DNA of 64,000 nt, taken from the NCBI RefSeq assembly GCF_900090325.1, contig NZ_FMHW01000002.1, forward strand, positions 1,240,001-1,304,000, read 5' to 3'. Both the position numbers and the translations under genes were made by a program. Under the pieces are notes generated by a model that saw only the letters and a program-made list of their open reading frames with translations, did not search any database and was not told the DNA's origin. This document shows, piece after piece, positions 38,573-51,454 of the stretch. The DNA comes from Micromonospora pallida. GTDB taxonomy: Bacteria; Actinomycetota; Actinomycetes; Mycobacteriales; Micromonosporaceae. Every line of letters begins with the position of its first letter. The first letter of the stretch is position 1.

Positions 38573-39222
38573 TGAGCTACGCCGACCTCGAACGCGAGAT
38601 CGATCGGGCCACCCGGTCGGAGCGGCTCCGCGACTGGGTGCTGGGCGTCCTCGACGACGTCGCCGAGGTGCGGCGGTCGTTGCTGGCCGTACGGCATCCG
38701 CTCGGCTTCACCTGCCTGCCGGTGAACCGCACCGGCCCCGACGGGATCTGCGTGCACGCCTGGCCAGCCGAGCCACCGGCCGTCCAGCCGACCACGTCCA
38801 CCGTGCACTCGCACAGCTGGGACCTGCTCAGTCACGTGCTGCACGGGCGGATCCGCAACGAGCTGATCGAGGTGACCGAGGCTCCCGCCGACCCCGCCTG
38901 GCGGGTGTACGAGGTGCACAGCCGGGACGACGTCGACGAGATGGTGGCCACCGACCGGCTGGTGACGGCGACGACTGCCACCGTGGAGACGCACTCCGCC
39001 GGCAACTCGTACGCGCTGCGCGCCGGTGGCTTCCACACCTCCGAGGTGGACGCGGGGCAACCGGCGGTGACCGTGGTGCTCGGCCGGGCCGCGCCCGGCT
39101 CGTGCGACCTCAGCCTCGGCGCGGTGGACGGGCGCAGCCACCGGATAAGCCGGGACCGCTGCGACGTGGCGGAGACCGCGCGGATGGCGCGGGAGATCGC
39201 TCGACTGGTGGCACGGGGCTGA
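38569..39222 (+). CDS. Cupin-like protein, function unknown
   Basis: This 217-aa protein starts at ATG 38569 (overlapping the previous stop) or ATG 38572. A segment HSHSWDLLSHVLHGRIRNEL and a later ETHSAGNSYALRAGGFHTSE give spaced histidines that could form a cupin metal site similar to cysteine-dioxygenase-like folds; this is inferred by pattern only. It is translationally coupled to the 2-TM protein and 14 nt before the IMPase gene. Confidence 0.75.
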   Translation: MMSYADLEREIDRATRSERLRDWVLGVLDDVAEVRRSLLAVRHPLGFTCLPVNRTGPDGICVHAWPAEPPAVQPTTSTVHSHSWDLLSHVLHGRIRNELIEVTEAPADPAWRVYEVHSRDDVDEMVATDRLVTATTATVETHSAGNSYALRAGGFHTSEVDAGQPAVTVVLGRAAPGSCDLSLGAVDGRSHRISRDRCDVAETARMAREIARLVARG

Positions 39223-39236
39223 GGGCTGGAGGAGAC

Positions 39237-40139
39237 ATGGACGTGGAGCCGAGCGGGCGCGGATCGGACCTGCGTGACGCGCACCGGTTCGCGGTGGAGG
39301 CCGCCCGGGACGCCGGGCGGCTGTTGCGCCGGGGCACCCGTGGCGAGCTGCACGCCCGGGCCAAGAACGACTCCGGGGACCTGGTCACCGACCTGGACCT
39401 GGCCGCCGAACGGCTGATCGTCGACCGGATCCGGGCCCGCTGGCCGGAACACGGCGTGATCGCCGAGGAAGGCGGCGAGTACGCCACCGACGACTCCTGG
39501 ACGTGGCTGGTGGACCCGCTGGACGGCACCAACAACGTGGCGATCGGGCTGCCCGCGTACGTGGTCGGGATCGCGCTCTGCGACCGGGGCTCGCCGGTGC
39601 TCGGGGTGGTGCACGACCCGGTTGCCGGTCGTACCTGGTCGGCCGTCCGTGGCCAGGGCGCTTTCGTGCACGTGGACGGCCCGGCCGGCCAGCCGCTGCG
39701 CACACCGCACCGGCCGGTGCCGGCCGCGCCGGTGCTGGCCTGGACACAGGGACACGAGGTACGCCGGGACGACAGCACCGCCCGCGCCCTCAAGGTGGTG
39801 CTCGACTCCACCGCCCGGCGCGTGTTGCAACTGTGGGCGCCGCTGCTGTCCTGGGTGATGTTGGCCCGGGGCGACATCGACGGCATCGTCGGCTACCGCC
39901 CGGAGGCGGTCGACCTGCCGGCCGGGATGCTGCTGGCTGTCGAGGCCGGCATGGTGGTCCGGGCCCTCGACGGTGGCTGCTTCGACGACCGGTACGGGTG
40001 CCCGGCTGACCGGCGCAGCTTCGTCGCCGGACCGCCGGAGACGATCGACCGGCTGGTCAAGCTGGTGACCGCGGCACAGTGGATCGAGCCGCAGGTCCGC
40101 CGCCTCACGCCGATCAGCCTGACCAGCGTCGGCTGGTGA
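39237..40139 (+). CDS. Inositol monophosphatase-family phosphatase
   Basis: This 300-aa protein starts at ATG 39237 behind GGAGG (4-nt spacing). The Li+-sensitive phosphatase motifs are DLVTDLDLAAE, AEEGGE and WLVDPLDGTNNVAIGLP. The late metal-site segment, usually WDxAAG, reads EAVDLPAGM here and keeps the Asp. Substrates in the family include inositol phosphates, histidinol phosphate, fructose bisphosphate and 3'-phosphoadenosine phosphate. Coupling with a membrane protein and a cupin is not the setting of a housekeeping suhB or hisN. Confidence 0.9.
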   Translation: MDVEPSGRGSDLRDAHRFAVEAARDAGRLLRRGTRGELHARAKNDSGDLVTDLDLAAERLIVDRIRARWPEHGVIAEEGGEYATDDSWTWLVDPLDGTNNVAIGLPAYVVGIALCDRGSPVLGVVHDPVAGRTWSAVRGQGAFVHVDGPAGQPLRTPHRPVPAAPVLAWTQGHEVRRDDSTARALKVVLDSTARRVLQLWAPLLSWVMLARGDIDGIVGYRPEAVDLPAGMLLAVEAGMVVRALDGGCFDDRYGCPADRRSFVAGPPETIDRLVKLVTAAQWIEPQVRRLTPISLTSVGW

Positions 40140-40177: not shown

Positions 40178-41410
40178 TCAGCCTGACGGAGCGACCAGCA
40201 GGGCGGTGACGCTGGCGGTGGTGGCCAGGGCGGCGAGGACGGCGCTGGTGGCCACGAACCGGCCCAGCGGGACCGCGACCCCGGCGGCCCGGCAGCGCTC
40301 GTACCAGATCAGCGTGGCCAGCGACGCCCACGGGGTGGCGAGCGGGCCGACGTTGGTGCCCACCAGCAGGGCCAGCAACTGGGTGTGGTGGTCAGCGGCG
40401 ATGACCGCCTCCCCGGCCACGTACGCGGGCAGGTTGTTGACCACGTTGGCGAAGAACGCGCCGACGGCGCCGGCCCGCAGTACGCCCTCCGTACCCGGGT
40501 CGCTGCCGATCAACGTGCCCATCACGGTGTCCAGCCCGTGGCGGCCGATGGTCTGCACCACCAGGAACAGCCCGGTGACGAAGACCAGCAGCCGCCAGGG
40601 GACCAGTTGGAGTCTCAGGCTGCCCCGGGCGCGGACCGCGAACCCGGCGACCAGGATCGCGGCGGCCACCCCGGAAGCGAGCCCGATCTCGACCTCGGCG
40701 AGGACCCCGGCGACGAACAGCAGGCAGGCCACGAGCGCGGTGCGGTAGAGCACGGGGTCGGGCGGCACGTGTGGTGGCGGTGGCACGAACGAGTCGGCGC
40801 CGGCCCGCGCCGGCCGCCAGTACCACCACCAGAGCAGCAGCATGGTGATCGCGATCGCGACCAGTTGCGGCCACCACATCCGGGCCGCCCACGCCACCGG
40901 GGCCAGGCCGATCCGGTCGCTGGCCAGGATGTTGGTCAGGTTGGACACGGGCAGCAGCAGGCTCGCCGTGTTGGCCAGCCAGACCGTGGTCATCGCCAGC
41001 GGGATCGGCGGCACGCCGAGCTTGCGGGCCAGGGCGATCATCACCGGGGTGAGCAGGACGGCGGTGGTGTCCAGGTTGAGCGCGATCGTGGTCACCGAGG
41101 CGAACCCCACGCAGAGCCAGAACAGCGCGCCGAAGTTGCCCCGCGCAGTGATCGCCACCCGGGCGGCGAGCGCGTCGAAGACCCCGGCCACCGCGGTCAG
41201 TTCGGCCAGCACCACCACGGTGCCGAGGAAGATCAGGATCGGCAGGATCCGGCGTACGGTGGCCTCGGCGTCCGCGCGGGGGAGGAGCCCGGTGAGGACG
41301 CAGAGGACACCGCCTGCGAAAAGCGCGATCGCGATCCAGTCCAGTACGTGCAGCCGGCCCCAGCGGGATCGGTCCGGTGCGGCCGACGGTGGCTCGCCGC
41401 TGGTCTCCAC
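40178..41410 (-). CDS. ArsB/NhaD-type ion permease
   Basis: This 410-aa membrane protein (GTG 41410; GAGGA about 10-12 nt upstream) has about eleven helices. Family signatures are NLDTTAVLLTPVMIALARKL and FFANVVNNLPAYVAGEAV, repeated in both halves as in the ion transporter superfamily (arsenite/antimonite, Na+/H+, citrate). No ars genes are nearby, so arsenite specificity is not implied. It is divergent from the TIR-NACHT gene, with an 87-nt spacer. Confidence 0.88.
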   Translation of the reverse strand: METSGEPPSAAPDRSRWGRLHVLDWIAIALFAGGVLCVLTGLLPRADAEATVRRILPILIFLGTVVVLAELTAVAGVFDALAARVAITARGNFGALFWLCVGFASVTTIALNLDTTAVLLTPVMIALARKLGVPPIPLAMTTVWLANTASLLLPVSNLTNILASDRIGLAPVAWAARMWWPQLVAIAITMLLLWWWYWRPARAGADSFVPPPPHVPPDPVLYRTALVACLLFVAGVLAEVEIGLASGVAAAILVAGFAVRARGSLRLQLVPWRLLVFVTGLFLVVQTIGRHGLDTVMGTLIGSDPGTEGVLRAGAVGAFFANVVNNLPAYVAGEAVIAADHHTQLLALLVGTNVGPLATPWASLATLIWYERCRAAGVAVPLGRFVATSAVLAALATTASVTALLVAPSG

Positions 41411-41497
41411 AAGGCAGGATCCTCGCACACCGCTGCTCCCCCGAGTGGCCCCGACGCGACGGGGCGGGCGACCGCGTATGGTGGCGACGGATTGACG

Positions 41498-44400
41498 GTG
41501 GGTGGCCATAATGGCGAGGTGGCTGTAGGCGCGCAACCGACCCGGTCCGACCGCCCGATCGACTTCTTCGTCAGCTACTCGCCCGCCGACGAGCGCTGGG
41601 CGACGTGGCTGGCGTGGGAGTTCGAGGCCGCCGGCTACCGCACCATGCTCCAGGCGTGGGACTTCGTGGCCGGCACCAACTTCATCGACTTCATGGACCG
41701 AGGGGTCCGGGAGGCCGCCGTCGTGGTGGCCGTCCTGTCGGAACGCTACCTGCACTCCACGTACGGGAAGCTCGAGTGGCAGGCCGCGCTGCGCGCCGAC
41801 CCGGATGGCACCGGCAACAAGCTGGTCACCGTCCGGGTGGAGGACTGCCCGATCGACGGCCTGCTCGCCACCATCACGTACGTCGACCTGGTCGGGGTCA
41901 CCGACCCCGACCAGGCGCGTTCCCGGGTGCTGGACCGGATCCGGGAGGCGCTCGACGGCCGCGCCAAACCCGTCCGGCAACCTGCCTTCCCGCACCATCC
42001 CGCCGACCCGGCCGGGGTGCTCTCCACGCCCGTGGGCGGCCCGCCCGCCCCGCGCCGGGCCCGCCGTACGCCGATCAACCCGCCACCGTTCCCGCCCGCC
42101 TCGGCGGCCGTGCCGACCGCGCGGACGGCGCTGACCGTGCTCCAGGTGGCCGGACCGCGGTTCGGTCGGGGTGTGATCGAGCCCGGTGCCCCGGTCACTC
42201 CCGGAGAGCTCCAGGAACACCTGATGGGTGACCTCACCCTGCTGATGAACGATGGGGTTCCCCGACCTGACCTGCTGGTGGTGGCGGGCAACCTGACCGA
42301 GTCCGGCAGCCCCCGCGAGTTCTCCGACGCGTTGAGTTTCCTCACCGGGCTGCGGGTGCTGCTCGGGTTGGAGCCGCACCGTCTGGTCGTGGTGCCCGGC
42401 CCGCGCGACGTGACCATGGCCGCGAGTCGCGCGTACTTCGCCACCTGCGAGGCGGACGACGTCGACCCGCAGCCGCCGTACTGGCCGAAGTGGCGGCACT
42501 ACGCGCGGCTCTTCGACGACCTCTACCAGGGTCTCGAGGACCGGATCTTCGACAGCGAGCAACCCTGGACGCTGTTCCCGGTGCCGGACCTGCGCCTGGT
42601 GGTGGCCGGGCTGAACTCCACCATCGCCGTCACGCACCGCGAGGAGGACCGGTACGGCTTCCTCGGCGAGGCCCAGTCCACCTGGTTCGCCCAGCGGCTG
42701 CGCCACTACCAGCAGTCCGGCTGGCTCCGGCTGGGCGCGATGGCGCACGTCCCCGGCCCGCGCACCCCGTACGCCGACGAGGTGGCGGTCCTGGACGGGG
42801 TGACGCTGCGCGACCGGGGATCGTTCAACCGCCTGCTCGGGCCGATGCTCAACCTGCTGCTCTCCGACGCCGCGCCGACCGGCGCCCGGGTCGATCCGGT
42901 GGTACCGCTGGCCACCGCGTCCCGCGACGGCCGGGCGCAGGTGCTCCGGCTCGCCGCCGACGGGATGACCCGCTGGGTGCTCGGCCGCGACGACCGGCAC
43001 GACGTGGGCGAGCCGACGGCGGTGAGCTGGCCGCGGGCGAAGGCGACGTTCGGAGCCGCCGGGCCGGCCCAGGTGCCCGACCCTCGGCTGCCCACGGCCG
43101 TCGAGGGGCCCATCCAGGATGCGCCGGTCACCACACCGGCGGTGGTCCCGGCGGCGCCGCTGGACCGACTGCTCGACCGACTGGCCGAGGTCTGCGAGGC
43201 GCGCCACGACCGGGTGCTGGTCCGTCGGGTGGCGGCCGAGCCGCCGCACCTGTTCGTCACCTACCGGGCCGACGGGGTGGTCCGGCAGCAGCGGGTCGGG
43301 GCGTACGTCGGCACCCCGACCGCAACGGACCTCGACCACTTCGCCCGGCGGGTGCACGCCACCGACCCGGACATCCCGTCCGAGCTGGTCTACGACGGCG
43401 ACCGGGTCCCGCGCGGGCTGGCCGAGGAGGCCCAGCGGCGTGGCGTACGGGTGCTGCACCTGACCGAGTTCCAGGGGCTGCTCGACCTGCGCGAGTACGT
43501 CGCCGCGCAGACCGCCCGGCTGCAGGCCGACCGGCTCTACCCGCCCGGCCAGTATGTGCCGCAGCGCTATCGCCACCTGGTCGGCGCCGACCAGCAGGTC
43601 CGCGAGGATGTGGTGGACGAACTGCTCGAGCTGGTCTCCGCGCCGGACGGCCGGTTCGTGCTGGTGCTCGGTGACTTCGGCCGGGGCAAGACGTTCGCGT
43701 TGCGCGAGGTGGCCCGCCGGCTGCCGACCGCCGCCCCCGACCTGATCCCGATCCTGGTGGAGCTGCGTGCGCTGGACAAGGCACACTCGGTCGACGGTCT
43801 GGTCGCCGCGCACCTGGCCAACCACGGCGAGCAGGTGATCGACCTGAAGGCGTTCCGCTACATGCTCCGCCAGGGGCGGATCGTGCTGCTCTTCGACGGC
43901 TTCGACGAGTTGGTGGCCCGGGTCACCTACGACCGGGCGGCGGACCACCTGGAGACGTTGCTCCAGGCGGCCGAGGGCAACGCCAAGATCGTGGTGAGCA
44001 GCCGCACCCAGCACTTCAAGACCAACTCGCAGGTGCTCACCGCGCTCGGCGAGCGGGTCGGCATGCTGCCGCACCGGCGGGTGCTGGCCGTCGAGGACTT
44101 CACCTCCGGGCAGATCGAGGCCTTCCTGCGGCACCGTTACGGTGGGGACGAGCGGGCCGCCCGGGAGCGGATGGACCTGCTCGGCGGGGTGAAGGACCTG
44201 CTCGGCCTCTCCCGCAACCCGCGCATGCTCGGCTTCATCGCCAACCTCGACGAGGGACGGCTGACCGCCGTGGCCGGTGCGGGCGGCACGTTCAGCGCGG
44301 CCGCGCTCTACCGGGAGATCCTGGAGTCCTGGCTGGACTTCGAGGAGCGGCGTACCCAGGGCGTGCCGGGTGTGCCGGTCAGCCTGCGCCGTCCCGAGCT

Positions 44401-47308
44401 GTGGCACGCGGTGAGCCGGTTGGCGTTCCAGCTCTGGGAGAGCGGGGAGTCGTACCTGCGCCTGGCCGAACTGGCCGAGACCGCCGGGCAGCTCGCCGGG
44501 CTGGCCGAGTCCCGGCTCTCCGGACCGCAGGCGACGCACGCGGTGGGTGCGGGCAGCCTGCTGGTGCGTACCGACGACGGTCTGTTCGGGTTCATCCACA
44601 CCTCCGTGATGGAGTGGCTGGTCGCCGCAGGGATCGCCGCCCAGCTCAACCAGGGCGAGGACCCCTCGGCCCTGGCGACACGCCCGCTGTCGACGCTGGC
44701 CGTGGAGTTCCTCGGCGACCTCGCCGACTCGGCCCGCTGCACCGCCTGGACGTCCCGAGTGCTCGGCGACGAGACGGCCGGCGAGACGGTGCGGGCCAAC
44801 GCCTTGCGGCTCAGCGCCCGACTGCGGCTGCCGGACCGGGCCGACCTGCGTGGCGCGGTGCTGCGCGGTGAGGACCTGTCCCACCGGGAGCTGGCCGAGG
44901 CGGATCTGACCGGCGCGGACCTGACCGACACCCGCCTGGTCGCCACCAACCTGACCGGGGCCCGGCTGGCTCACGCCCGGCTACGCGGCGCCCGCCTGGA
45001 CCAGACCCGCCTCGCCGGGGCCGACCTGCGCGCAGCCGAACTGGCCGGGGCTCGACTGTTCCGGGCCGATCTGCGCAACGCGCGAGTCGCCGGCAGCAGT
45101 TGGCGCCGGGCCGCGCTGATCGACGTGAACGCCGACGCGGCACTGCTGCGCGCGCCGGAGCTGCGCGGCGCGGTGGTCGCCCCGGGCCGTCCGGTGACAC
45201 CGGGCCTGGCCCCGCCCGCCGTCGGCGTCTCGTACGGCTTCGAGGTGGGCCGACTGCCGGTGCCGGCGGCGTACAGCCCGGACGGCACGGTGCTCGCCGT
45301 GGGCAGCGACGACGGGGGTGTGCTGATCTGCGACACGGCCAGCGGCCTGCCGGTGCGGACCCTGCAGGGTCACCGGGGGCGGGTGTACGCGGTCCGCTTC
45401 GACGCCGCCTCGCACCACCTGGTCACCGGCGCGGCCGACCTCACCGTACGGCTGTGGGACGCCGATCACGGCGACGTGCGGCACGTGATCGAGGATGTCT
45501 TCGCCGGCTGGGTGTGGCCGCTGCTCACCGACGGCGCGCGGGGCCGGCTGGTGGTGGGCGACGCGGCCGGCGTGGTCCGGCTCTACGACACCCGCACCGC
45601 CCGGCTGCGCCAGGAATGGCCCGGGCACGCCGCGCCCATCTGGGGCACCTCGTTCAGCCCGGACGGCCGGCGGGTCGTGGTCGTGGACAGCGCCGGCGTG
45701 GTCCGTGGCTGGGACATCGCCTCGGGCAGTCTCGCCTTCGAGGTGCGGGAGCCGGAGGTGGTCTACCGGGTGGTGCACACCCCGGACGGCCGCTCGCTGG
45801 TCGCCGTCGGCCAGCACGGCCGGGTGTGGATCCGCCGGGCCACCGACGGGGAACTGCTGCGCCAGCCGCGCGGCCACGAGGCCGACGTGTACGCCCTCGA
45901 CGTGCACCCCGACGGCGGGTTGATGGCCACCGGCGACACACATGGCGCGCTGCGACTGTGGAACGTGGAAACCGGCCGCCCGGTCCGGGCGCTGGGCCGG
46001 CAGCGTGGCGCGATCTACAGCGTTCGGTTCAACGCCGACGGCACCATGCTCGCCACGGCCGCCAGCGACGGGGCGATCCAGCTCTGGGACACCGCCGACG
46101 GCCAGCTCCGGCACGAGCTGACCCGGCACCGCGGCTCGGTCTGGCCGGTGGTCTGGCGGCCGGACCAGGTCCAGGTGGCGACCAGCAGCAACGACGGCAC
46201 CACCCGGCTCTGGGACGTGCGGTCCGGGCAGCTTCAGCACACCCTGCGCGGACACGGGCGGCGGGTCACCTCGCTGTCCTTCCGGGAGGACGGCGAGGTG
46301 CTGGCCGCGTGCGGCAACGACGGCGTGGTGCGGCTGTGGGAACCGCGCACCGGGCGGCTGGTCCGGCAGCTCGCCAGTCCGGCCGACCGGCTGCTCTCCG
46401 CGGTGTTCTGCCCGGGCGATCCGCTGGTCGCCGCACCGAGCGGCGACGGCGGGGTACACCTGTGGAACACCGACACCGGGGTCGACGAACGCGAGCTGAA
46501 CGTGGACACCGACCATGTCTGGGCGGCCGCGTTCAGCCCGGACGGCGACGCGCTGGCCACCGCAAACGACGACGACACGGTCCGCCTGTGGTACCGGCGT
46601 ACCGGCCGGCACTTCGCCACCCTCACCCCGCACCGGGGCCGGGTCCGGGCGGTGGCGTTCAGCCCGGACGGCGAGGTCATCGCCACCGGCTGCGACGACC
46701 AGCTCGTCCGGCTCTGGGACGCCGCTACCGCGACCTGTCGCCGCACCCTGGAGCAGCACACCGACCGGGTGTACGCGGTGTGCTTCAACAGCGAGGGGAC
46801 GCTGCTCGCCAGCGCCAGCAACGACGGCACCGCCGTGGTGTGGGACGCGCTCACCGGCGAGCGGCGTACGGTGCTCACCGAGCACACCGGCCGGCTCTGG
46901 TCCTGCGCGTTCAGCCCGAACGGCGCGCTGCTCGCCACCGCCGGGGACGACCTGATCATCCGGCTGTGGGATCCGGGCACTGGCCGGCTGCACGGCACCC
47001 TGGCCGCGCACACCCGGCGGGTATGGTCCGTGGCGTTCAGCCCGGACAGCAGCACGCTCGCCAGCGCCGGTGACGACGGCACCGTCCGGCTGTGGGACGT
47101 AGCGGACCCGGAGCACGCGCAGCTGCGCGCCACCCTGATCGGCCTGCCGGAGGGCTGGGCTGCGGTCAGCCCGGACGGACGGTACAAGCTGGACGGCGAT
47201 CCGGGCGGTCAGTTCTGGCACGTCATCGGCACCTGCCGGTTCGAGGTGGGGGAGTTGGACCCGTACCTTACGCAGGTGCGCCGGTTGTCGGTGGACGCCC
47301 CGTTCTGA
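41498..47308 (+). CDS. TIR - dead metallophosphoesterase - NACHT - pentapeptide - WD40 giant protein
   Basis: About 1,936 aa. Residues ~20-150 form a TIR domain (DFFVSYSPADERWATWLAWE; candidate catalytic Glu93 in GKLEWQAAL). Residues ~210-475 look like a calcineurin-type phosphoesterase whose metal motifs are altered: VAGPRFG for SDLHFG, AGNLTESG for GDLTESG, VPGPRD for PGNHD. Residues ~550-670 form an unassigned alpha/beta domain, possibly nuclease-like, without clear active-site residues. A NACHT NTPase follows (Walker A LGDFGRGKTFA near 724, Walker B IVLLFDGFDEL). Pentapeptide repeats span ~1110-1225. About fifteen 42-residue WD40 repeats (~1245-1890) suggest two propellers. The architecture fits a STAND-type immune sensor with a TIR NADase effector. 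The start is uncertain (GTG 41498 or 41519; no clear ribosome-binding site). Confidence 0.9.
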   Translation: MGGHNGEVAVGAQPTRSDRPIDFFVSYSPADERWATWLAWEFEAAGYRTMLQAWDFVAGTNFIDFMDRGVREAAVVVAVLSERYLHSTYGKLEWQAALRADPDGTGNKLVTVRVEDCPIDGLLATITYVDLVGVTDPDQARSRVLDRIREALDGRAKPVRQPAFPHHPADPAGVLSTPVGGPPAPRRARRTPINPPPFPPASAAVPTARTALTVLQVAGPRFGRGVIEPGAPVTPGELQEHLMGDLTLLMNDGVPRPDLLVVAGNLTESGSPREFSDALSFLTGLRVLLGLEPHRLVVVPGPRDVTMAASRAYFATCEADDVDPQPPYWPKWRHYARLFDDLYQGLEDRIFDSEQPWTLFPVPDLRLVVAGLNSTIAVTHREEDRYGFLGEAQSTWFAQRLRHYQQSGWLRLGAMAHVPGPRTPYADEVAVLDGVTLRDRGSFNRLLGPMLNLLLSDAAPTGARVDPVVPLATASRDGRAQVLRLAADGMTRWVLGRDDRHDVGEPTAVSWPRAKATFGAAGPAQVPDPRLPTAVEGPIQDAPVTTPAVVPAAPLDRLLDRLAEVCEARHDRVLVRRVAAEPPHLFVTYRADGVVRQQRVGAYVGTPTATDLDHFARRVHATDPDIPSELVYDGDRVPRGLAEEAQRRGVRVLHLTEFQGLLDLREYVAAQTARLQADRLYPPGQYVPQRYRHLVGADQQVREDVVDELLELVSAPDGRFVLVLGDFGRGKTFALREVARRLPTAAPDLIPILVELRALDKAHSVDGLVAAHLANHGEQVIDLKAFRYMLRQGRIVLLFDGFDELVARVTYDRAADHLETLLQAAEGNAKIVVSSRTQHFKTNSQVLTALGERVGMLPHRRVLAVEDFTSGQIEAFLRHRYGGDERAARERMDLLGGVKDLLGLSRNPRMLGFIANLDEGRLTAVAGAGGTFSAAALYREILESWLDFEERRTQGVPGVPVSLRRPELWHAVSRLAFQLWESGESYLRLAELAETAGQLAGLAESRLSGPQATHAVGAGSLLVRTDDGLFGFIHTSVMEWLVAAGIAAQLNQGEDPSALATRPLSTLAVEFLGDLADSARCTAWTSRVLGDETAGETVRANALRLSARLRLPDRADLRGAVLRGEDLSHRELAEADLTGADLTDTRLVATNLTGARLAHARLRGARLDQTRLAGADLRAAELAGARLFRADLRNARVAGSSWRRAALIDVNADAALLRAPELRGAVVAPGRPVTPGLAPPAVGVSYGFEVGRLPVPAAYSPDGTVLAVGSDDGGVLICDTASGLPVRTLQGHRGRVYAVRFDAASHHLVTGAADLTVRLWDADHGDVRHVIEDVFAGWVWPLLTDGARGRLVVGDAAGVVRLYDTRTARLRQEWPGHAAPIWGTSFSPDGRRVVVVDSAGVVRGWDIASGSLAFEVREPEVVYRVVHTPDGRSLVAVGQHGRVWIRRATDGELLRQPRGHEADVYALDVHPDGGLMATGDTHGALRLWNVETGRPVRALGRQRGAIYSVRFNADGTMLATAASDGAIQLWDTADGQLRHELTRHRGSVWPVVWRPDQVQVATSSNDGTTRLWDVRSGQLQHTLRGHGRRVTSLSFREDGEVLAACGNDGVVRLWEPRTGRLVRQLASPADRLLSAVFCPGDPLVAAPSGDGGVHLWNTDTGVDERELNVDTDHVWAAAFSPDGDALATANDDDTVRLWYRRTGRHFATLTPHRGRVRAVAFSPDGEVIATGCDDQLVRLWDAATATCRRTLEQHTDRVYAVCFNSEGTLLASASNDGTAVVWDALTGERRTVLTEHTGRLWSCAFSPNGALLATAGDDLIIRLWDPGTGRLHGTLAAHTRRVWSVAFSPDSSTLASAGDDGTVRLWDVADPEHAQLRATLIGLPEGWAAVSPDGRYKLDGDPGGQFWHVIGTCRFEVGELDPYLTQVRRLSVDAPF

Positions 47309-47374: not shown

Positions 47375-47432
47375 CCGCCGCGATGAATCCTTTTCTCAGA
47401 TTGGGGGTCCCGTTCGCGCAAGGTGAGTGCTG

Positions 47433-48848
47433 ATGCGCTCCCCGGCCGCGAATGCGGATACCCGCCTTTCCCTCTGGCGGCGCGTACGCGAGTACGCCGT
47501 GCCGCCCTCGATGATCGAAGCCGCGACCGTTCGTCGTCGCGTCGGTGACTGGGCCGGCGCGTGTGCCGCCGCTCGCGTCGACGTCGATCTGGATCTGCGT
47601 ACCGTGGCTCGCTGCCACGGCCGGGACATGGCCGCCCGGTTGCGGGCTGATCTCCGGCACCTCGCGCCGGACCTGCTGCGCTGGCACATGCCGAGGATCG
47701 CGCCTGACGGGCTGCTGCGTCCGGGCCTGACCGTCTCGCTGGCCCGGTACGGCCCGGCGGACCACCACGGTGCCGAGCCGGTGCACCTCGTCGTCCGGAC
47801 GGCACCGGGCTGGGCGGATGCGGGTCAGCGGATCAGTCTGGCACTGTGGGCCGGATCCCGTGACGAAGCCGACTGTCCTCATCCGCAGGCGCGTCCCGAT
47901 CGTCGGTTCCGCCTCGACCTGCACCGTCACCTGTGGGACGCGCGGCGGGCCGGGGAGCTGCGGAGCCGGTCGGGCGCACCGGAGTTGGCCGTCGACAACG
48001 CTGCCGCGATGCGCCCTGATCCATCATGGGACGCGTTGCGGGACCGGGGTTACGCGGTGCACCGGTGGGCGGCCGAAGCGGCGGTGCTGCTCCAGGCCGA
48101 GGGCCGGGCCAGCGGTGCCGTGGTGGTGCGGATCGGGCCTCGACGCCGTCTGGTCCTGGACGTCACCCCGGCGGGCCCGGATCTACGGTCGTCGCCTGCG
48201 CCGAGGATCGCCGGGGCGTCGCGGGCTGGTGGCGTCGTCGGGCTGCCGGTGCTGCCCGACGCGGCGACCTGGATGACGCCTGACCTGGAGCTGCTGCGCC
48301 ACGGGCTGATCGAGGTCGACCGGCTCCACCCGCTGGTGGCCGGTGCGCTGGCGCCCGGTCAGCCGGCCGCCCCAGCATGCCCGGACCCGGACCAGGGCCA
48401 GGACCCGGGGGCAACGCCAGGTCTCGTGCCCTGTCGGGGGGACTGGCACCGCATCGGTCTGGTGGACGGGGTACTCCAACCCCTGGACCACGACCCGGCG
48501 GAGATCCGCCGGGAGGAACTGCTGGCCGCGCTGACCGGCACCCCGCTGCCCTGCCTGCGGGCGGTCGACGAGGCGCACCGCCGGCCGGAGTGCCTTCCCG
48601 ACGTCCGCGCCCGCCTGGACCACGGGGACACCGCCGGCGCGCTGGCCGCTGTCGAGGCCCTGCTCGGACCCGACGCGCTCCTGCGTAGCGGGGAGTTGCG
48701 GGAGGAACTGGAAACCGCCGCGTCGCGGCGGATCACGTACGGGCTGTTCCGGTCCGGGCTGATCGAGCAGGGACCTCCTCCCCGCTCCCAGGACTGGCAG
48801 AGCAAGCGCGGCAACCGCTCCCACCCACGTCACACGATCGCCCGCTGA
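47433..48848 (+). CDS. Unrecognised protein of MoxR/vWA module
   Basis: This 471-aa soluble protein starts at ATG 47433, preceded by AGGTGAG with 5-nt spacing. I see no signal peptide, membrane helix or known motif. The N-terminal part is Arg/Ala-rich and helical (MIEAATVRRRVGDWAGACAA; VARCHGRDMAARLRADLRHL) and the middle is beta-rich (VRIGPRRRLVLDVTPAGPDL). The C-terminus is basic. It precedes the MoxR ATPase by 66 nt in the same direction and probably works with it. Such leading ORFs accompany MoxR-DUF2201 pairs in actinomycetes (my recollection, not checked). Confidence 0.75.
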   Translation: MRSPAANADTRLSLWRRVREYAVPPSMIEAATVRRRVGDWAGACAAARVDVDLDLRTVARCHGRDMAARLRADLRHLAPDLLRWHMPRIAPDGLLRPGLTVSLARYGPADHHGAEPVHLVVRTAPGWADAGQRISLALWAGSRDEADCPHPQARPDRRFRLDLHRHLWDARRAGELRSRSGAPELAVDNAAAMRPDPSWDALRDRGYAVHRWAAEAAVLLQAEGRASGAVVVRIGPRRRLVLDVTPAGPDLRSSPAPRIAGASRAGGVVGLPVLPDAATWMTPDLELLRHGLIEVDRLHPLVAGALAPGQPAAPACPDPDQGQDPGATPGLVPCRGDWHRIGLVDGVLQPLDHDPAEIRREELLAALTGTPLPCLRAVDEAHRRPECLPDVRARLDHGDTAGALAAVEALLGPDALLRSGELREELETAASRRITYGLFRSGLIEQGPPPRSQDWQSKRGNRSHPRHTIAR

Positions 48849-48914
48849 CCAGCGGGATCTCCTTCCCTCGCCCGGCTTCGGGCCGGCCCGTCACGACCGC
48901 ATAGGTGATCTCAG

Positions 48915-50207
48915 ATGCTTTCCACCCGTACCTCGATCGACACCGCTTCCGCCCGGCAGCTCGACACCGCCCCCGCGCCGCAACCCGACACCGCTCCCGC
49001 GCCGCAGCTCGAGGTAGCCGCCGAGCTGCTCGCGCTGCTGTCCGACACCACCACCGAGACCCGTTCCGATCCGCAGCTGGAGGCGCTGACCCTGACCGTG
49101 GCGGCGGATCTGCCGGTGCTGCTGTGGGGCGAGCCGGGAATCGGCAAGACCGCCGCGCTGACCCAGCTCGCCGCGTCCCTGGACCTGCCGCTCACGACGG
49201 TGATCGCCAGCGTCCACGAGCCGTCCGACTTCTCGGGGCTGCCGGTCGTCGGCGACGACCCGGCGACCCAGGGCGTTCCGATGGCGCCGCCGGACTGGGC
49301 CGTGCGCCTGGTACGCGCCGGTCGCGGACTGCTGTTCCTGGACGAACTGTCCACCGCTCCGCCGGCCGTGCAGGCCGCTCTGCTCCGTCTCGTGCTCGAG
49401 CGGCGGATCGGCAGTCTGCGGTTGCCGGCCGGGGTTCGTATCGTGGCCGCCGCCAATCCACGATCGTCGGCGGCCGACGGCTGGGAGCTGAGCCCGCCGC
49501 TGGCCAACCGCTTCGTCCACCTTCAGTGGACCCACGACCAGGAGGTCGTCGTACGGGGTCTGCACGGGACCTGGCCCCGGGCCACGCTGCCCCGGCTCGA
49601 CCCCGAGCGGCTGCCGGATGCCGTCGCCTTCGCCCGCCGCGCGGTGTGCGGGCTCCTGTCGGCCCGCCCGGGGCTCGTGCACCGGCTGCCCACCGGTGAG
49701 GCTGGTCGCGGTGGGCCGTGGCCGTCGCCCCGCAGCTGGGAGATGACCCTGCGGCTGATCGCCTTCGCCACCGCGGCCGACACCTCCCGGGAGGTCCTGT
49801 CGATGCTGGTCAGAGGCACCGTGGGCGACGGTCCCGGACTGGAACTGCTGGCCAGCCTGGACCGGATGGACCTCCCCGACCCCGAGGTGCTGCTCGCCGA
49901 CCCGGCCACCGCCGTCCTGCCCGAGCGCGGTGACCTACGCCAGGCCGTCCTGGACGCCGTGGTGGAGGCGGTACGCCGGCGTCCGGAGCGGTCCCGCTGG
50001 GAGGCGGCCTGGACAGTGCTGGTCCGGGCGCTGGAGACCGGCGCCCCGGACCTGGTGGTCGTGCCCGCATCCACCCTTGCCCGGCTGCGGCAGGAGGACT
50101 GGGTCGTGCCCGCGTCGATCGACCGGCTCGCCGGAGCGGTGTCGCTGTCCCGCCGGGCCGACCAGACGGCGGCCCGGGTCGCGGCGGTCGCGGGGACCGG
50201 ACGATGA
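48915..50207 (+). CDS. MoxR-type AAA+ ATPase
   Basis: This 430-aa protein has Walker A LLWGEPGIGKTAAL (~residues 69-82), Walker B GLLFLDELSTAPPAVQAALL, sensor 1 in VRIVAAANPRS and an Arg-rich LANRF motif. A Pro/Ala-rich N-terminal tail (repeats of DTAPAPQP) precedes the ATPase core. MoxR ATPases act as chaperone-like remodelers with vWA partners. The stop overlaps the start of the vWA/HExxH gene by 4 nt (ATGA), indicating stoichiometric co-production. Confidence 0.9.
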   Translation: MLSTRTSIDTASARQLDTAPAPQPDTAPAPQLEVAAELLALLSDTTTETRSDPQLEALTLTVAADLPVLLWGEPGIGKTAALTQLAASLDLPLTTVIASVHEPSDFSGLPVVGDDPATQGVPMAPPDWAVRLVRAGRGLLFLDELSTAPPAVQAALLRLVLERRIGSLRLPAGVRIVAAANPRSSAADGWELSPPLANRFVHLQWTHDQEVVVRGLHGTWPRATLPRLDPERLPDAVAFARRAVCGLLSARPGLVHRLPTGEAGRGGPWPSPRSWEMTLRLIAFATAADTSREVLSMLVRGTVGDGPGLELLASLDRMDLPDPEVLLADPATAVLPERGDLRQAVLDAVVEAVRRRPERSRWEAAWTVLVRALETGAPDLVVVPASTLARLRQEDWVVPASIDRLAGAVSLSRRADQTAARVAAVAGTGR

Positions 50208-51454
50208 CCCTCGACCACGCCGGGACGCTGGACCGGGACAAACTCTTCGCCGCCCGGCTGCACGCCGCCCGGGTCCGGCCCTACCTGGCGACGGCGCTGT
50301 TCGCCCTGCACGTGGTGGAGTCGCGGCGGGTGCCGACGATGGCGGTGGACCCGCACTGGCGGTGCTACGTCTCGCCCGCGTTCGTGGAGCTGACCCCCGT
50401 GGAGGAACTCGCCGGAGTGTGGGTACACGAGGTGTCGCACCTGCTCCGTGACCATCACGGGCGCAGCGACCGGGTCGCGCGGGAGCGCGGGCTGACGGGG
50501 CCGGGGGAGCGGCTGCGGATGAACATCGCCGCGGACTGCGAGATCAACGACGACGTCTTCGGCGACGGGCTGGCCCGTCCCGAAGGCGCCGTCGAGCCCG
50601 GCTCCCTGCTGCTGCCCGAGGGACAGCTGATGGAGGACTATCTGCGGCAGTTCCGACTCGGACCGCGTAGCCAGCACCTGGCCTGGCTGGACTGCGGCAG
50701 CGGCGCCGACGGGTGGCAGCGGGAGTGGGACCTCGGACCGGACGGCGGCCACGCCCTCAGCCGCCAGGAACTGGATGCGGTGCGGTTCCGGGTGGCCGAG
50801 GGCATCACCGGCCAGCCGGGAAACGTCCCCCAGGGCTGGCGGCGGTGGGCGGAACAGGCGTTCCACCCACCGCAGCCGTGGCGCGAACTCCTGGGAGCGG
50901 CGGTGCGCTCGGCGGTCTCCGCGCCCGGTGTCGGCGAGGACTACACCTACGGCCGGCCGGCGCGGCGCTCCGCCGGCGTACCGGGCGTCGTCCTGCCGGC
51001 GCTGCGGCGCAGGCCCCCACGGGTCTGCGTCATCATCGACACCTCCGGCTCGGTCAGCGACGCCGAACTCGGCAGCGCCCTGCTCGAGGTCGCCGCGATC
51101 TCCCGGGCCGTGGGCGGCCGCCGCGACCTGGTCACCGTGCTGCCGTGCGACGCGGCAGCCCAGGTCGTACGCCCGCTGTGCCGCGCCGAGGACATCCCGC
51201 TGGTCGGTGGCGGGGGTACGGACCTGCGCGCCGGTTTCGCCCGGGCGCTGCGCGACAGACCAGGCCCGGACGTCCTCGTCGTGCTGACCGACGGGCAGAC
51301 ACCCTGGCCGACCGCACGACCGTCCGCTCGGACCGTGGTGGGACTGTTTCCCCGAGCCAGCCGATGGGACGAGGACGACCCCGACTACGTGCCGGACTCA
51401 CCGCCCGGGTGGGCACGCGTGGTCACCATCGGATCCGCTCCCACCGCTCGGTGA
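50204..51454 (+). CDS. DUF2201-like protein: HExxH metallopeptidase-like domain plus vWA-like domain
   Basis: This 416-aa protein has a zincin-type motif HEVSH (residues 75-79, in VWVHEVSHLLRDH) followed by NIAADCEINDD. A C-terminal vWA-like domain begins VCVIIDTSGSVSD with a MIDAS-type DxSxS, then GGGGTDLRAGF and VLTDGQTPW. This matches the DUF2201 pattern of predicted metallopeptidases. MoxR-vWA partners of this type occur in predicted NTP-dependent conflict systems. It is the last gene before a strong terminator. Confidence 0.88.
   Translation: MTLDHAGTLDRDKLFAARLHAARVRPYLATALFALHVVESRRVPTMAVDPHWRCYVSPAFVELTPVEELAGVWVHEVSHLLRDHHGRSDRVARERGLTGPGERLRMNIAADCEINDDVFGDGLARPEGAVEPGSLLLPEGQLMEDYLRQFRLGPRSQHLAWLDCGSGADGWQREWDLGPDGGHALSRQELDAVRFRVAEGITGQPGNVPQGWRRWAEQAFHPPQPWRELLGAAVRSAVSAPGVGEDYTYGRPARRSAGVPGVVLPALRRRPPRVCVIIDTSGSVSDAELGSALLEVAAISRAVGGRRDLVTVLPCDAAAQVVRPLCRAEDIPLVGGGGTDLRAGFARALRDRPGPDVLVVLTDGQTPWPTARPSARTVVGLFPRASRWDEDDPDYVPDSPPGWARVVTIGSAPTAR

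Follow-up and report, generated by a model that had tools for sequence, protein, structure and literature searches.

In a TIR-NACHT-WD40 protein of Micromonospora pallida the phosphoesterase domain (MPE) that lies between the TIR and NACHT parts has lost every residue of its known metal site and is kept under purifying selection. The near family is alike in this loss, and relatives that keep the whole site provide the contrast; the proposal of an earlier note on this DNA that the phosphoesterase has become a pseudoenzyme is thus supported, and on stronger grounds than the note itself offered. We favour, at about even chances, an explanation in which an MPE-NACHT receptor gained an N-terminal TIR effector, its MPE then losing the site on more than one occasion within the family and staying as a non-catalytic coupling module.

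The gene lies in the window, the 64,000-nucleotide stretch of DNA that was analysed, and its features are collected in Table 1. The earlier note had listed TIR, phosphoesterase, NACHT, pentapeptide and WD40 parts in its product and all of these were found, but the note had overlooked the NACHT-associated inactive restriction endonuclease (NA-iREase3), which scores above the cut-off of its family and was placed at the same position by a second scan. The architecture had also been thought to look unusual, a view that finds no support in a near family of 121 proteins. As judged from sequence, the TIR part belongs to the TIR fold family and has the catalytic Glu93, both of which are expected of a TIR NADase effector. 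The NACHT part exceeds its Pfam cut-off and contains both Walker A (residues 725-732) and Walker B (residues 797-805), in keeping with a NACHT/STAND NTPase; the Walker A residues K731 and T732 and the Walker B residues D800 and E804 are identical in 121/121 proteins. In one relative (L149, genome G111) the TIR has, by eye, Gln in place of the catalytic Glu, and its MPE keeps two of the eight metal and catalytic positions considered below. PADLOC produced weak matches to the TIR part only, the best being to bSEFIR (E 3.9e-07). A three-domain structural model of TIR, MPE and iREase had a pTM of 0.51 and no fixed packing visible. Very long antisense open frames run opposite the gene on the minus strand (window 40178-44974 and 44981-47221). 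Leaving aside the permease, which sits at their low end, these frames resemble by-products of a high G+C content.

Table 1. Features of the receptor gene and its divergent neighbour, in window coordinates.
Feature	Position	Strand	Evidence or remark
CitMHS/ArsB-type permease, divergent neighbour	40181..41410	-	PF03600 E 1.1e-30, PF02040 E 6.9e-20; start codon approximate
Whole gene, 1936 aa	41498..47308	+	GTG start; start codon inferred
TIR domain, residues 18-150	41549..41947	+	TIR_2 E 2e-33
Glu93 of TIR	41774-41776	+	E in 119/121 homologues, gapped in 2
Pseudo-phosphoesterase (MPE) domain, residues about 208-500	42119..42997	+	
MPE motif I slots, Asp to G219, His to R221	42152..42160	+	
MPE motif II slot, Asp to N265	42290..42292	+	
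MPE motif III slots, Asn-His to P302-R303	42401..42406	+	
MPE motif IV, ligand His to A416; next His, H417, kept	42743..42748	+	
MPE motif V, HxH to A458-A459-P460	42869..42877	+	
NA-iREase3, residues 556-664	43163..43489	+	PF22739, 125 bits against a cut-off of 27
NACHT NTPase, residues about 719-879	43652..44134	+	PF05729 E 5.8e-10, 39.7 bits against a cut-off of 26.7
Pentapeptide repeats, residues about 1114-1222	44837..45163	+	PF00805 E 1.3e-17; NF047416 at 1114-1222
WD40 repeats (about two propellers), residues about 1300-1868	45395..47101	+	PF00400, 12 stretches

The loss of the metal site is complete. With an alignment to four relatives that keep the whole site as the reference, the eight metal and catalytic positions are occupied in the M. 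pallida protein by G219, R221, N265, P302, R303, A416, A458 and P460, so none of the residues that make up the two-metal site of an active metallophosphoesterase (D, H/Q, D, N, H, H, HxH) is present (0/8). Alignment with homologues that keep the ligands revealed substitutions in the aligned slots, and intact ligands elsewhere did not turn up. The sequence AHVPGP, read previously as a late HxH motif, corresponds instead to the HHPP motif, whose first His we take to be a metal ligand on the basis of the ligand numbering of Rv0805 and of alignments with Rv0805; the second His, H417, is His in 119/121 proteins and at 79/79 loci. Among the 121 proteins (the M. pallida protein included), the Asp of motif I is replaced by Gly and its His by Arg in 120, the remaining row being uncovered at this point. 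The Asp of motif II persists in 85 and is replaced by Asn in 36, while motif III keeps its Asn in two proteins and its His in 55. Taking the eight positions together, 11 of the 121 proteins keep none, 78 keep one and 32 keep two, and the corresponding figures for the 79 loci are 20, 48 and 11. All 228 domains that we collected, which came from seeds near the M. pallida protein and from NA-iREase3 surveys and whose shares are not population estimates, keep none in 31 cases, one in 131, two in 48, three in 13, five in one and all eight in four. Recent decay in this strain alone is ruled out by the fact that the loss is common to the near family. Some of the dead homologues, P0015 for example, are labelled 'cyclic AMP phosphodiesterase CpdA', and such labels are a warning against inferring activity from names.

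The calcineurin-like fold described in the earlier note was recovered. The predicted structure of the MPE clearly matches the phosphoesterases Rv0805 and SMPDL3A, with further matches to VPS29 (2a22) and GAP50 (3tgh); the top match, 9a6c_B, is an integrative model and was disregarded. Kinship with the calcineurin-like phosphoesterase superfamily is also seen at the level of sequence: the M. pallida domain matches DS9_1 at E 3.6e-11, the DS-9A phosphoesterase (NF053862) being its nearest named family, and close relatives match PF00149 over its cut-off. All matches to the DS-9A model, this one included, lie far under the curated cut-off of 420 bits. A plain sequence search against solved structures yielded nothing significant (best E 0.16), and a profile search gave weak matches, with Rv0805 at E 0.002-0.007. 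When the MPE alignment was used in a phylum-wide search, 124/396 genomes had matches; besides the M. pallida protein itself these were weak (best E 1.6e-7), and most were about 50 residues long, lay in short frames and were uninformative on NACHT proteins. An origin as a plasmid or phage gene is unsupported, with no match in the phage collection and one in the plasmid collection, to an 11.85 Mb Nonomuraea record.

The MPE is under purifying selection. In comparisons of the M. pallida gene with 15 Micromonospora orthologues the median dN/dS was 0.111 for the MPE, 0.084 for TIR and 0.088 for NACHT; it was 0.211 for the iREase, 0.183 for both the pentapeptides and the WD40 part, and 0.207 and 0.286 for two linkers. 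The closeness of the MPE value to those of TIR and NACHT indicates that the dead domain is held by selection almost as firmly as the catalytic parts.

In other proteins the MPE-iREase-NACHT core is found with its MPE intact and joined to different N-terminal parts. All eight positions are kept in L141 (MPE-iREase-NACHT, with no TIR match) and in L142-L144, which have a TIR, if Gln is counted as allowed at the first His. L141, L142 and L144 match the DS-9 model at E 2e-29 to 4e-27 and the DS-8 model at E 9e-10 to 3e-14, and L141 and L142 match Metallophos at E 8e-12 and 1e-10, respectively. A separate kind of protein from three Micromonospora genomes (L189-L191) keeps 8/8 with the standard His, and L189 matches DS-9 at E 5e-48. 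The frames of L189, L190 and L191, of 812-821 aa, combine TPRs with an intact DS-9-like phosphoesterase and have no Pfam match N-terminal of the TPRs. When the MPE of L144 served as seed, a search yielded 559 proteins among 8000 scored candidates. Among the 120 matches listed, 111 keep all eight positions, eight keep six or seven and one keeps five, shares that stem from an intact seed and are not population estimates. We divided the 120 by presence or absence of a TIR, the 'trypsin' class being defined by a crude motif. Of the 108 TIR-less proteins among the matches listed, 102 keep 8/8 and the others six or seven; the 12 that bear a TIR, 11 of them assigned to Frankia, keep eight in nine cases, seven in two and five in one.

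In a careful 62-row tree based on the iREase and NACHT columns alone, the M. pallida protein falls in a clade of 36 rows (support 100/100) that is wholly dead, and a separate clade of 10 rows (100/98) combines four intact and six dead domains. Parsimony with regain allowed needs three changes in the mixed clade. If regain is assumed not to occur, we read from this unrooted tree no fewer than three losses when supported branches alone are counted, and about five when the best tree is followed. The remnants differ among the dead clades, with HxH surviving in L145-L147 and the Asp residues of motifs I and II in L177, L178 and L182, as separate decays would leave them. A wider, quick tree of 94 rows (five near-copies dropped, 34 rows from the 108 non-TIR proteins plus L141, and four of the 12 TIR proteins used) has intact TIR-less proteins at several places around the TIR clades. 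An independent-pairs test on this tree, with L156 outside its counts, yielded two to four pairs, of which the differing ones go the expected way, too few for significance. The clade-placement tree was likewise a quick one, and L173 and L181, which have long branches, were left out of all three trees.

The part ahead of MPE-iREase-NACHT varies. It is a TIR in most rows, a trypsin-like peptidase in L192 (E 3e-10), where the MPE keeps 5/8, an XRE HTH in both L186 and L187, and a SAV_2336 N-terminal domain in one L188 gene (406 bits; cut-off 200); nothing was recognised before the MPE in L141 and in the other L188 gene. With no TIR in the chain, 2/8 positions are kept in the MPEs of L186, of L187 and of both L188 genes, which tells against any strict rule by which the MPE becomes dispensable through a TIR alone. 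Equally, TIR and intact MPE stand together in L142-L144 and in nine of the 12 TIR proteins among the 120 matches listed, so a TIR does not force the loss. A further clade consists of TIR-iREase-NACHT proteins without an MPE, an indication that coupling can work without it; L150 and L152 are not such cases, since both parts are present in them, in a different frame or on either side of a masked stretch. In L186 and L187, from two Micromonospora genomes, an HTH-MPE-iREase-NACHT-WD40 protein that sits inside the M. pallida clade is found about 1.6 kb from a TIR-MPE protein without NACHT, with other genes between them. The MPE of the separate TIR-MPE protein keeps 2/8 in L186 and none in L187, and the two frames are open save for a masked stretch in L187, with a dN/dS of 0.33 over 408 codons. 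This split pair is a lead to, and not proof of, an adaptor role for the MPE.

The closest tested system is DS-8, an antiphage protein in which mutations in the metallophosphatase or in NACHT abolish defence, according to the DefensePredictor study (PMC13092281). DS-8 (NF053861) and the M. pallida protein both have a metallophosphatase and NACHT in one chain and both are structural kin of SMPDL3A. DS-8 requires its metallophosphatase residues, whereas the M. pallida protein keeps 0/8 and has TIR, NA-iREase3, pentapeptide and WD40 parts in addition. The latter has no match to the DS-8 model at E <= 0.01, and its intact relatives score 36.9 to 51.8 bits, under the model's cut-off of 790 bits. DS-9A, from the same source, is a two-gene system with a HAD phosphatase and a required active site, unlike the single-chain protein studied here. 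Passages in PMC7159879 and in PMC8195603 count TIR and calcineurin-type domains among the effectors of STAND-containing conflict systems, and treat inactive enzyme modules as a theme of actinobacterial conflict systems; the arrangement found here, a dead phosphoesterase flanked by TIR and NACHT, is not mentioned in those passages, and the word 'permease' occurs 0 times in PMC7159879. Among the papers listed by searches of literature open without subscription, none dealt with a dead phosphoesterase in a NACHT protein.

The order of the parts, taken with the DS-8 result, points to the usual STAND scheme of sensor repeats, NACHT switch and N-terminal effector. On this reading the protein is a single-chain STAND (NACHT) receptor, presumably with an immune purpose, in which the WD40 and pentapeptide parts would sense a trigger and NACHT would bind or hydrolyse NTP and oligomerise. 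Oligomerisation would bring the TIR domains together, and NAD+ would then be consumed or a signal made. The ancestral effector would have been the MPE, as in DS-8, a step that depends on the root of a tree that is unrooted. With TIR placed in front, catalysis by the MPE would no longer have been needed and the domain would have been retained as a non-catalytic coupling and packing module between TIR and iREase-NACHT, much as VPS29 serves as a scaffold in retromer, a likeness in working mode only, with no membership claimed. The title of Collins et al. (2005) names a phosphoesterase fold as a protein-interaction scaffold. The DNA polymerase B subunits are another scaffold with this fold. The suggestion in the earlier note that the MPE may gate the TIR effector is compatible with our comparative data.

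We consider it unlikely that the dead MPE is instead a putative ligand receptor whose altered pocket binds a nucleotide, for example a TIR product or one made by phage, and gates TIR or NACHT. The pocket region is conserved despite the lost ligands (G223, G264, P300, G301, D304, H380 and H417 are each present in at least 96% of 223 dead rows) and the nearest folds are nucleotide phosphodiesterases; however, the third slot of motif I is occupied in Streptomyces by R, D, A, G, N, C, S or V, which is not how a fixed binding residue behaves. Continued enzyme activity through another metal site or metal-free chemistry seems very improbable given that the slots of the known site are lost. Residues C317, H334, Q355, W396 and F397 of P0001 are nearly fixed in the 223 dead rows, the four intact ones having other residues there, and H334 in particular is new, being found in 97% of the dead rows and replaced by F, F, C and S in the intact ones. 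This signature may reflect a new function or plain ancestry, the dead rows being mostly close kin of the M. pallida protein. That one clade manages without an MPE could be taken to mean that the domain is a roleless relic kept by chance, but we find this scarcely credible when its dN/dS is below those of the iREase, WD40 and linkers and when seven residues (P327, K331, F351, W357, N373, Q393 and R411) are invariant across the 223 dead and four intact rows.

The neighbouring permease has to be considered in this context too. It is beside the gene in 76/79 homologue loci, the contigs of the other three starting at or near the gene, and also beside L185 and L193-L196, while a 30-37% identical permease is directly downstream in L153, L154, L155, L167, L172 and L176. 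The total for the fused, dead-MPE group is 87/87 testable loci in two arrangements, with the window not counted. The clade tree includes L019, L022, L041, L044, L050, L075, L080, L185, the six operon-type loci and the M. pallida gene, and the remaining permease loci were assigned to the clade by close similarity. The permease is absent from the XRE-type members L186 and L187. It was found at 0/31 loci of outside relatives, 13 of these loci having less than 1.2 kb on one side and the 18 with more likewise giving none. Of 151 Micromonospora genomes, 44 have any MPE match and 38 have an orthologue (at least 86% identity); in 38/38 of the latter the permease (at least 84%) is alongside, as judged from coordinates, and is truncated in G788. 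A near-identical permease (at least 84%) is found in 4/113 genomes without the orthologue, some permease match in 110/151, and permeases of 60-71% identity in many of the orthologue-less genomes. Next to the permease of one of the four, L197, lies a 27-codon match to the C-terminal end of the receptor (E 4.7e-06), the kind of trace expected of a deletion; L198-L200 have no receptor remnant there. In G788 (contig C3, 1829496-1830941) the matches to receptor and permease are each truncated on the side where the two genes face each other, the permease match beginning at residue 196 and the MPE match at residue 53, a pattern that a single deletion across the shared promoter would produce.

The two gene orders and two permease types suggest a functional tie between permease and receptor, although clade inheritance could explain much. 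The tie could mean that the two form one unit for transport or stress control and not for phage defence, the receptor guarding the permease or reading its substrate. We regard this as distinctly unlikely: the constant adjacency in two arrangements, the difference between orthologue-bearing and other Micromonospora genomes, and the lack of plasmid or phage copies save for the one Nonomuraea record speak for it, but co-inheritance of neighbours within clades gives the same pattern, the XRE-type members do without the permease, related permeases live receptor-free in view of their presence in 110/151 genomes, and the Pfam names leave the substrate unfixed. A combined scheme is possible, if doubtful: the TIR-pseudoMPE-NACHT-WD40 protein and the permease would make up a receptor-transporter module in which the former guards the latter or reads its flux, with the dead MPE as a homotypic adaptor joining TIR to the NACHT core, even across two proteins.

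With DS-8, an active phosphoesterase attached to NACHT became a tested part of defence, and the present family offers a natural series of an intact MPE alone, an intact MPE behind TIR, a dead MPE behind TIR and no MPE. The series makes it possible to test whether bacterial NLR-like receptors swap effectors by addition at the front with the old one kept as a scaffold, and whether a membrane permease is part of such a receptor system. Three genes follow downstream on the plus strand (window 47427-51454), the first encoding a 473-aa protein without a Pfam or NCBIfam match and the others a MoxR-like AAA ATPase (48915-50207) and a DUF2201 metallopeptidase/VWA-like protein (50204-51454). A MoxR-vWA ternary system that includes these genes was ruled out, with conserved linkage in 0/115 loci. 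A gene of the inositol monophosphatase family (window 39102-40139, plus strand; PF00459 E 4e-43) is near the receptor gene in 65/115 loci.
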